64,000 nt of DNA from Nibricoccus aquaticus (GTDB taxonomy: Bacteria > Verrucomicrobiota > Verrucomicrobiia > Opitutales > Opitutaceae): positions 434,001-498,000 of the forward strand of contig NZ_CP023344.1 in the NCBI RefSeq assembly GCF_002310495.1, in the 5' to 3' direction. Positions 59,405-62,220 of this stretch are shown piece by piece; positions within the stretch are counted from its first letter, which is position 1, and every line of letters begins with the position of its first letter. Both the position numbers and the translations under genes were made by a program. Under the pieces are notes generated by a model, which was given only the letters and a program-made list of their open reading frames with translations, searched no databases and was not told the origin of the DNA.

Positions 59405-59435
59405 CGAGGTGAGTGGCGCGCCAGCCCTCACCTCG
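59405..59435. repeat. Inverted repeat at the pyrC/pseudokinase junction
   Basis: CGAGGTGAG and CTCACCTCG form perfect 9-bp arms around TGGCGCGCCA. It lies just after the pyrC stop and contains the last codons and stop of the convergent pseudokinase gene. It resembles the other palindromic intergenic repeats. Confidence 0.55.
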
Positions 59436-62220
59436 CCCCCAGATAAAACGCCCGCACCCCGCCGATCTCCAGCCACGAGCGCGCGATCGGATTAAACGCC
59501 ACTTCGTATACCGTGCGGTTCGCGAACTTCCCCGCCTTCCCGTCGTACAGCATCAGTCCGTAACCCGACGCCACCGGCACACGCACCGCCACCATCACGG
59601 CGACCGTCTTCTCGTCGTAGCGCCGCTTCAGGTCCGCCTCCGCCGCTTCCGCCGCCGCGACCTGCTCCTCCGTCGCCTCCACAAACCTGCGCACCTTCAT
59701 TGTCACGGCCTCACGCGTCATCTTGAACGGCCACGCCACCCGCACGATCTCCTGCGGAGCTTCTTCCGCAGTCGCCGCCACCGCTTCCGCCACGCGCTCC
59801 GTCTCTGCGACACCCGCCGCTTCCTTCGTCTGAATTTCCCACGGCTCCACTTTCCGCCGTTCCTCGCCGCTCTTGCCCGCTCCCTTCTCATCGATCTGCG
59901 CAGCGACCACCGCCTCGCGCCTCTTCGCGATTCCCTCCTTCAAGGAAGCCCCGCTTACGCCCAGCACCGACGCCAACACCAGCCAGCTCATCGTCGCCAC
60001 CACCCACGTCCCCACCGGCCTGCCAGCCGCGACCACCACACTTCGCGCCGGCTCAAACCCCAGCGTAGCGATCCCCCCATTCGCCTCCGCCAGCCCTGCG
60101 CGCAATCCCGCCTCCGTCCCCACTGCTCCACCGCCGATCACGCACTCCGCCTCCCGCTGACACCGCCTCGCTCCGTCGAAAAATCTCCACGCCTTCCCCG
60201 CTGCGATCCGCTTTGCCAAGTCCCTACGCTTCGCCAGCCACCAGCCCACCCTCGCGCCCAACACAACCACCACCGTCCCTACGCCCCACACAACCGCCTC
60301 GCTCCAACGCCCCGCATAGATTGCAGCGCCCACCGGAATCGCCACCACCACCGCGAGCCACACCCACGTCCCAAAAACCACCGGCCCCGCCCGCATCGCG
60401 CTCCCCAGCCGCACCCAATAAAGCGCCTCCACCATCCGCTGCGCCCGCGCCCGCAACTCCGCATACCGCTCCTCTCTCCACTGCGCATGCGTCACATACC
60501 CAAACCGCACCGCCTCGCTCCCGCTAAAAACCACCAGCACCCGCTCGTACCGCGTCGGCGCGCTCTTCTTAAACAACGCCTCAACCACGGTCTCACGGCT
60601 GCACGCGTACAACTGCTTCATCCCCGCGTGCGTCCGCTCCAGCGCATCCTCCGGCTCGAATAAACTCCGCAGCAACGCCAGCTCCGCCGCCGGCGAATCC
60701 ACCGCACACCCGCGCGCCGACGCCCACGCCACCGCCGCTTCGAAATCGTGTGCATAGCCGCCAAGCCACCGTCCCGTATCCGCATCTCCAGCACCGATCG
60801 CCTCGCTCAACACCGCGTTGATCGCCCCGCGCACCCGCGCCGCTCCCGACGGCTGCGCCTCATCGCGCAACCACTCCCGGATCAGCACCGCGTCGATCAC
60901 CCGCCCGCGCCACCGCGCCGCCACGATTCCCTTGCCCAGCTGCGCCCACGCCACGCACGCGACCATCTCCCGCCGCACGCCCTCCGGCAGCGTTTGCAGC
61001 GCCGTGCTCTGCTCCAGTTTCAACACCGCCTCCAGTTGTTCGCGCGCCTTCGCCTGCTCCGGATTCTCCGCGAGAAACGCCCTCAGTCCCCCTGCACGTC
61101 CGCTCCCTTCCTCGGCAAACAAGTCGCCCAAGCCTTCCTCCCATGCCTCCGCGCCTCCAAAAAGTTCAGCCGCCTCCGGCACCGTGAACAACCTTTCCTG
61201 CCTCTCGAACAACCGGTCATGCCGTGAAAGCTCATAGCGATCCCGCACCGGTTCCCCCGCCAGCCAGCGCTGCACCTGCTCGAATCCCCAGCGCCCATCG
61301 CGGCAGCTCGCCAGCAATCCGCGCAGCAGCCGCACGATCTCCGCCTCGACCGATGCCGGCATATGCTCCACCGCGCCCGCCCGCGTCATCCCTTCCTGCT
61401 CCGCCAGCACCGCCTCCGCCCGCGTCATCAGCTCCTCCGTCTCCCGCGACACATCCCGCTGCCACAACTCTCCGAATACATGCCGCCCCAGCACCAGCTC
61501 CTGCACCAGCCGCCCCAACGTCCACCAATCCCACGCCATCAGCCCGCGATCCGCCACATGCTTGAAAAGCCCCACCGCTTCCGGCGGCGCGTAAAAGGGA
61601 TTCCCATGCAGCACCACATGCCCGCCTCCTTCACCGCCGACGCCACCAGCGCCCGCGCTCCCCGTCTCTCCCGTCACCGCCACCGCCAGCTCCAGCCCCG
61701 CGAGAATCACATGCGGCCCGTTTTTATCCAGCACGCGCACAGCCTCCGGTCTCAAATTCAGATGCACCACGCCGCCTGCGTGCAACGCGTTCAACGCCCC
61801 CGCCAGATGCCGCACCAGCACCCGCACTTCGTCCAACGTCACCCGGCGCTCCATTCCCCACTCGCGCAACGTCATCGCCGGCCCCGCCAGCATCACCTCG
61901 ATGCGCCGCCCGTCGCTCTCGAAAACCTCCAGCGGCCTCAGCCACCCCATCTGCCCCTCCCCGCCCTCCGCGCACAGCCGCTTCCACGCCCCCGCCCTCC
62001 GCTCATCCATCACACGCAATCCCCGGATCACCACGTCATTTCCCGTCGCGATCTGCACCGCCACAAAACACTTCGCCGCCACCGCATCCGGCAGCGCCTC
62101 CCCGACCTGATACGCCTCCAGCCAGCGCGTTCCGGTCGCGAGCGTCTCCCACGCCATCGCCGGAATGGGCGACGCCGCTGCGGCCTTCACGACTGCGGAG
62201 GGATTGGGTGGGGTGGTCAT
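59428..62220 (-). CDS. Large membrane protein with a protein-kinase-like (pseudokinase) domain
   Basis: 930 residues. Residues about 35-325 follow the Ser/Thr kinase layout but the key residues are changed: the ATP-site Lys region reads 'NDVVIRGLRV' (Arg 66), HRD reads 'VVHLNLRPEAV' (153-155, Asp to Asn), DFG reads 'LAGLELA' (Gly-Leu-Glu, 175-177), while the APE region 'NPFYAPPEAVG' and 'LMAWDWWTLGRLVQEL' (usual D-x-W-x-x-G) are retained. A helical region follows (330-600), then membrane segments near 612-636, 641-662 and 736-757, and an Ala/Glu-rich tail. It therefore probably binds rather than phosphorylates partners. No phosphatase or target gene is adjacent. Conventional classification would need a profile search. 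Confidence 0.8.
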   Translation of the reverse strand: MTTPPNPSAVVKAAAASPIPAMAWETLATGTRWLEAYQVGEALPDAVAAKCFVAVQIATGNDVVIRGLRVMDERRAGAWKRLCAEGGEGQMGWLRPLEVFESDGRRIEVMLAGPAMTLREWGMERRVTLDEVRVLVRHLAGALNALHAGGVVHLNLRPEAVRVLDKNGPHVILAGLELAVAVTGETGSAGAGGVGGEGGGHVVLHGNPFYAPPEAVGLFKHVADRGLMAWDWWTLGRLVQELVLGRHVFGELWQRDVSRETEELMTRAEAVLAEQEGMTRAGAVEHMPASVEAEIVRLLRGLLASCRDGRWGFEQVQRWLAGEPVRDRYELSRHDRLFERQERLFTVPEAAELFGGAEAWEEGLGDLFAEEGSGRAGGLRAFLAENPEQAKAREQLEAVLKLEQSTALQTLPEGVRREMVACVAWAQLGKGIVAARWRGRVIDAVLIREWLRDEAQPSGAARVRGAINAVLSEAIGAGDADTGRWLGGYAHDFEAAVAWASARGCAVDSPAAELALLRSLFEPEDALERTHAGMKQLYACSRETVVEALFKKSAPTRYERVLVVFSGSEAVRFGYVTHAQWREERYAELRARAQRMVEALYWVRLGSAMRAGPVVFGTWVWLAVVVAIPVGAAIYAGRWSEAVVWGVGTVVVVLGARVGWWLAKRRDLAKRIAAGKAWRFFDGARRCQREAECVIGGGAVGTEAGLRAGLAEANGGIATLGFEPARSVVVAAGRPVGTWVVATMSWLVLASVLGVSGASLKEGIAKRREAVVAAQIDEKGAGKSGEERRKVEPWEIQTKEAAGVAETERVAEAVAATAEEAPQEIVRVAWPFKMTREAVTMKVRRFVEATEEQVAAAEAAEADLKRRYDEKTVAVMVAVRVPVASGYGLMLYDGKAGKFANRTVYEVAFNPIARSWLEIGGVRAFYLGAR

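Follow-up and report, generated by a model that had tools for sequence, protein, structure and literature searches.

A membrane-anchored pseudokinase family of Opitutaceae and the deletion of its kinase-like domain in one lineage without detectable Hanks-type kinases

The gene, its neighbours and the architecture of its product

The window, a stretch of 64,000 nucleotides of DNA from Nibricoccus aquaticus, carries on its minus strand an open reading frame that a preliminary description had taken to encode a membrane pseudokinase. The frame exists as claimed and is 930 amino acids long (Table 1). It is convergent with pyrC, across a gap of 30 bp, and divergent from a gene for a CPBP/Rce1-like (CPBP-type) protease, across a gap of 139 bp, both flanking genes lying on the plus strand. 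Opitutaceae bacterium EW11 (loci L028/L063) has its pseudokinase gene between the same two neighbours, pyrC on one side and the CPBP protease gene on the other. Two antisense ORFs, of 416 and 320 aa, belong to no family in a Pfam scan and were set aside. The genome from which the window comes is one contig of 4,730,447 bases, and it contains a second, distant copy of the pseudokinase family, at 37% identity.

Table 1. Features of the pseudokinase gene (coordinates are those of the window)
Feature	Coordinates	Strand	Basis
Whole gene, 930 aa membrane pseudokinase	59428..62220	-	ATG start
Pseudokinase domain, residues 28-326 (N-lobe 28-117, C-lobe 118-326)	61243..62139	-	Pfam, AlphaFold model, Foldseek/VIA over residues 19-323
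VVIR 63-66 in place of VAIK, beta-3 Lys lost	62023..62034	-	R/C/H/T/V and others in 31 members, K never
HLN 153-155 in place of HRD, catalytic Asp lost, His kept	61756..61764	-	His 31/32, Asp 0/32
GLE 175-177 in place of DFG, G-L-E itself conserved	61690..61698	-	G 30/32, L 25/32, E 21/32
PPE 212-214 (APE motif), invariant	61579..61587	-	Family alignment
WDWWTLG 230-236, helix alpha-F, D-x-W-x-x-G	61513..61533	-	D231 and G236 32/32, W233 31/32
Cytoplasmic all-helical module, residues 331-606	60403..61230	-	AlphaFold pLDDT mostly >90; no Pfam family; only in this pseudokinase family
Membrane segment 1, residues 614-632	60325..60381	-	Hydropathy, conserved across family
Membrane segment 2, residues 642-660	60241..60297	-	Hydropathy, conserved across family
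Membrane segment 3, residues 740-758	59947..60003	-	Hydropathy, conserved across family
Disordered linker, residues 767-823	59752..59922	-	pLDDT <50
C-terminal beta-alpha-beta domain, residues 826-928, predicted extracytoplasmic	59437..59745	-	AlphaFold pLDDT ~90 or more

Does the gene travel with a partner? No active partner had been noticed nearby, and this holds, the neighbours being pyrC and the protease gene. It extends to the family: no partner gene is conserved beside its members, and when the neighbours of 28 family loci were clustered, no kinase gene was found to be conserved next to the pseudokinase. The clusters, an NAD-dependent epimerase, prfA, valS, an unnamed conserved protein and a Sel1/LysM protein, yielded housekeeping genes only, not a conserved partner. 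A 500-aa candidate was rejected, being a conserved gene located elsewhere in the window's genome. Several family members are adjoined by a protein of about 500 aa (L070:14000-15511 and relatives) that is highly conserved, unnamed and without a Pfam family; the window's genome has, at another site, a gene 74-81% identical to it.

Beyond the kinase-like domain, the long helical region noted earlier is indeed all helical and confidently predicted, and hydropathy gives the three membrane segments. In the AlphaFold model the last hundred or so residues form a helix packed with beta strands. If the kinase end is cytoplasmic, three crossings, as judged by hydropathy only, would place residues 826-928 outside the membrane.

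Profiles of residues 331-930 and of the C-terminal domain, run against 76 genomes, matched only members of the pseudokinase family. The fold searches took residues 331-930, the small C-terminal domain included, as one piece. Foldseek gave no convincing match (best E 0.13), nor did VIA, whose best hit was a helical bundle (Z 5.6, rmsd 8.5, 134 aligned), while a PDB profile search with the C-terminal beta domain gave a weak match (E 0.08). Relatives of the membrane-side modules outside the pseudokinase family were not detected in the genomes searched.

A kinase fold without catalytic residues

That residues 28-326 adopt a kinase fold is indicated by several methods. Pfam Pkinase (PF00069) matches residues 124-317 with 37.3 bits, above its curated cut-off of 31.7, and also matches all 19 of the homologues scanned. 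A PDB sequence search returns kinases, CaMKII and ULK among them. AlphaFold2, given 26 sequences from the window and public contigs, produced a model (mean pLDDT 84.4) in which the N-lobe has five strands, helix C is formed and the C-lobe is complete. Foldseek with this model gives a top list that consists of kinases throughout, and VIA-align superimposes model residues 19-322 on ZIP kinase (1yrp) with a Z of 23.4 and an rmsd of 2.8 Å over 256 residues. With Pfam, PDB and the structural comparisons in agreement, the kinase fold is not in doubt. The preliminary description had named a profile or structural comparison as the test that might place the domain outside the kinase fold; both place it inside. 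The landmarks it relied upon are present as well, PPE in the APE region and D231-W-W-T-L-G236 as the D-x-W-x-x-G motif.

The catalytic residues are another matter. VVIR, HLN and GLE do occupy the three catalytic sites, so that the window protein has R66, N155 and G175 where a kinase has the VAIK Lys, the HRD Asp and the DFG Asp. The family alignment has 32 members, or 31 at the beta-3 Lys, since one fragment stops short of it, and not one retains the Lys (0/31) or either Asp (0/32 in each case). In place of the DFG Asp there is Gly in 30 of 32, and the L of HLN is conserved in 27 of 32. Absence of the catalytic Lys and Asp residues from every aligned member is due neither to chance nor to sequencing error, and a reading of the protein as an active Hanks-type Ser/Thr kinase was rejected because all three are missing. 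The most divergent member (L035:7419-10118, genome G019) has Tyr in place of the HRD His, and a 1159-aa frame on the opposite strand overlaps it.

Could other residues have taken over? The preliminary description had set this as a second test. Across the 32 members, no conserved polar residue is found at the catalytic positions, and the positions of the beta-3 Lys, the HRD Asp and the catalytic-loop Lys and Asn have entropies of 2.4-2.6 bits, compared to a mean of 1.84 for the domain. Both tests thus turned out in favour of its main interpretation. Elsewhere residues that determine the fold are invariant despite only about 30% identity amongst the members: PPE 212-214, D231, G236, R237, Q240, E285, R310 and W311 are identical in 32 of 32. 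Mean entropy is higher in the N-lobe (2.27) than in the C-lobe (1.66). Catalytic positions that are free to vary within a scaffold that is frozen are what a domain shows when it is selected but does not catalyse. For the two closest pairs, N-lobe and C-lobe alike have a dN/dS of 0.08-0.15, similar to other regions of the protein; between more distant members it is the C-lobe that is under the tighter constraint. Values so low in both lobes argue that the pseudokinase is not a decaying relic. The family is therefore one of bacterial pseudokinases: the domain has the kinase fold, none of VAIK, HRD and DFG survives in it, and it is under selection. Its sequence and fold predict that it carries out no phosphotransfer.

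Known pseudokinases and the distribution of the family

Bacterial pseudokinases are largely unexplored by experiment, and in a 2025 review of their families Verrucomicrobia receive no mention (PMC12599244). Amongst those described, MviN/MurJ of Mycobacterium tuberculosis (ActPs3) is alike in that a membrane protein carries, on the cytoplasmic side, a kinase fold from which the VAIK Lys, HRD and DFG are gone. ActPs3, however, is found mainly in actinobacteria, is marked by a deletion in its activation loop and, in M. tuberculosis, belongs to the MviN membrane protein. In the window protein the kinase-like domain is followed by the helical module, the three membrane segments and the beta domain, with no match to MurJ (Pfam finds Pkinase only). 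The pseudokinase of MviN is dispensable for the core job of the protein and recruits an inhibitor once it is phosphorylated by PknB (PMC12599244). MviN is the nearest worked precedent for the logic in outline, but the window protein is not a member of its family.

EssB/YukC is also a transmembrane pseudokinase without any of the three motifs, one that plays a non-catalytic scaffold role (PMC12599244). It is a Firmicutes protein, however, and the window protein has neither a match to an EssB-family Pfam model nor type VII secretion genes nearby. The GLW pseudokinases of Proteobacteria are similarly degraded in all three motifs, but they have GLW for HRD and a poly-Leu motif for VAIK, where the window protein has HLN and VVIR. 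CP1 and DLHK pseudokinases have no membrane segments, and DLHK retains the HRD Asp, unlike the window family, in which membrane segments are conserved and that Asp is absent. Membership in MviN/ActPs3, EssB/YukC, GLW, CP1 or DLHK was rejected, as in each case a defining feature fails. Other candidates fared no better. The defence kinase MAD6 scores 24.7 bits against a cut-off of 460; the match to the defence kinase MkoA is limited to its kinase part (residues 118-320 against profile positions 108-274 of 1112), leaving the helicase part unmatched; and a kinase-TM-PASTA receptor of the PknB type would have a PASTA match, found neither in the window protein nor in 19 members.

Also compared were active-type kinases from Streptomyces (L086), Acrocarpospora (L087) and a deltaproteobacterial MAG (L088), which share the signature YAPPE...AWDWWSLG. 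The family profile matches them over the domain, with 78-83 bits for the best three. Unlike the pseudokinases, these AWDWWSLG kinases keep HRDxKPxN, and L086, L087 and L088a keep DFG. In a tree of the domain, rooted at its midpoint, the pseudokinases form one group (support 0.67) with the AWDWWSLG kinases nearest, which would fit catalysis having been lost once, in an ancestor of the group. The AWDWWSLG kinases are 800-915 aa long, with long unannotated C-terminal parts, and may represent a parent class. In one of them the HMM match extends about 40 residues beyond the kinase domain; a shared post-kinase region was considered, but profile-profile comparison does not support it.

The preliminary description had guessed that the protein might be lineage-specific, and so it appears. 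By single-sequence search, 38 of 252 Opitutaceae species genomes carry it, spread over 15 of 49 genera. The family profile, taken to samples of 372 genomes from the order and 387 from the phylum, finds full-length members in Opitutaceae only and, beyond that family, matches kinase domains only. A pattern-based scan of 84,980 species genomes gave Verrucomicrobiota-type records, one record labelled only 'bacterium', and kinase-only matches in actinobacteria and one deltaproteobacterium. A search of viral contigs for relatives found none. Tandem copies of the pseudokinase gene occur at L098:8594-14627 (G089) and L034:1-3144 (G013).

A natural deletion and what the domain may be for

Three species of one genus (g7), G264 (L093), G268 (L092) and G271 (L091), have orthologues that lack the kinase-like domain cleanly. 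The frames are 677-688 aa long, with about 290 pseudokinase residues missing, and the disordered N-terminus passes through a short Pro/Ser/acidic stretch directly into the helical module. The kinase region was sought elsewhere in the three genomes and not found. Purifying selection still acts on what remains of the protein (dN/dS 0.18-0.20). The three orthologues group as a single clade (0.97-0.99), whose sister is the full-length protein of G006 (1.0), with G263 next.

A Pkinase search of the three genomes, which like the other drafts of the deletion lineage are 89-97% complete, gave no Pkinase protein, and the same search of G006 (L037) gave the pseudokinase itself and nothing else. The congeners G263, G265 and G266 have several other Pkinase matches each. 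When the rate of the C-lobe is taken relative to that of the helical module, G006 and G263 are the fastest among 30 proteins, with mean residuals of +0.090 and +0.083, compared to -0.021 to +0.045 for the other 28. Thus one genus holds the same gene with an ordinary, a fast-evolving or no pseudokinase, in genomes with several or no other Hanks-type kinases.

I propose, giving it an even chance, that the family comprises membrane sensors or regulators in which the pseudokinase is a non-catalytic docking or input site coupled to active Ser/Thr kinases. The protein would be anchored in the membrane of Opitutaceae, with the helical module and the inactive Hanks-type kinase domain on the cytoplasmic side and, beyond the three membrane segments, the small beta domain on the other. 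The pseudokinase would provide, above all in its C-lobe, which is rigid, a surface that serves for docking, for recruitment or for an input dependent on phosphorylation, and would thereby link the membrane module with active Ser/Thr kinases of the cell or with their readers. Candidates for such kinases exist in the window's genome, which has five others; of these four were read, and all four have HxD and DFG. Against the proposal stand the lack of a kinase gene conserved beside the pseudokinase and the lack of any identified docking motif of a known kind, FHA or other. A role as scaffold or signalling receptor had been suggested in the preliminary description. The deletion in a lineage without active Hanks-type kinases lends that role some support, though the role itself is still inferred.

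The simplest reading of the g7 genomes is an order in time. The pseudokinase domain would have loosened in the common ancestor of G263, G006 and the three domain-less species, the active kinases would have been lost in the common ancestor of G006 and those three, and only afterwards would the domain have been deleted. That G263 has an accelerated C-lobe yet retains Pkinase matches suggests that relaxation may precede kinase loss. If the events did occur in that order, they suggest that the use of the domain depends on active Hanks kinases, and that the membrane and extracytoplasmic core is able to work without pseudokinase input. It is one lineage that points to a docking role, and its genomes are drafts, so the dependence is a lead rather than a proof. 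More tentatively, the proteins may be transmembrane receptors whose pseudokinase is an input module slaved to Ser/Thr kinases, one that, after the kinases are lost, first loosens and later is excised, while the core stays selected. If this is true, then nature has performed a stepwise deletion experiment that reveals the purpose of a bacterial pseudokinase.

Might the domain serve without any kinase? It could be a structural scaffold, assembling a membrane complex by dimerising or by binding a fixed protein partner, as EssB/YukC does in type VII secretion (PMC12599244). The strong conservation of the C-lobe scaffold and alpha-F would fit this view, as would the lack of an adjoining kinase gene. 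A scaffold, however, does not predict that loss of the domain should coincide with a lineage lacking Hanks kinases, three species manage without the domain, and no conserved neighbour presents itself as a partner in a complex. I consider it unlikely, if a serious contender. A nucleotide-sensing switch, whose pocket would still bind ATP or ADP but not catalyse, is improbable. ULK4 and DLHK, without the VAIK Lys, bind nucleotide or are modelled to do so (PMC12599244), and Arg is the commonest residue at that site (14 of 31 members). The Arg is not conserved, however, other members having C, H, T, V, F, S or further residues there; neither the DFG Asp nor the catalytic Asn is kept; the N-lobe is the more variable of the two (2.27 vs 1.66); and MviN, with a comparable loss, does not bind nucleotide (PMC4718504, PMC12599244).

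The deletion in one clade, along with the accelerated C-lobe in the clade that includes it, is what might be expected if the domain were left over from an active kinase, joined to a membrane protein that is useful in itself, and were now in decay. Elsewhere, though, dN/dS of 0.08-0.15 in both lobes and invariant fold-determining residues in 32 members with so little overall identity make this quite improbable. Least probable of all, and very much so, is an enzyme repurposed to a reaction other than that of a kinase, for example AMPylation, as in SelO, or glutamylation, as in SidJ. Cases of this kind are known among bacterial pseudokinases (PMC12599244), but SidJ reuses ATP- and metal-binding residues (PMC12599244), while here the canonical catalytic positions hold no conserved polar residue.

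Coupling to active kinases can be put to the test, since the contrast within one genus opens the tie between pseudokinase and active kinase to comparative genomics and to domain swaps in a naturally kinase-less background. What is new here is the inactivity of an entire family with selection on its fold, its restriction to Opitutaceae, and its stepwise deletion in a Hanks-kinase-less lineage.

The g7 genomes differ in size as well. The drafts of G264, G268, G271 and G006, with no detectable active Hanks-type kinase, are 4.1-4.9 Mb, and those of congeners with several are 5.7-6.8 Mb. In the four smaller drafts an entire signalling class appears to have been lost within a genus.
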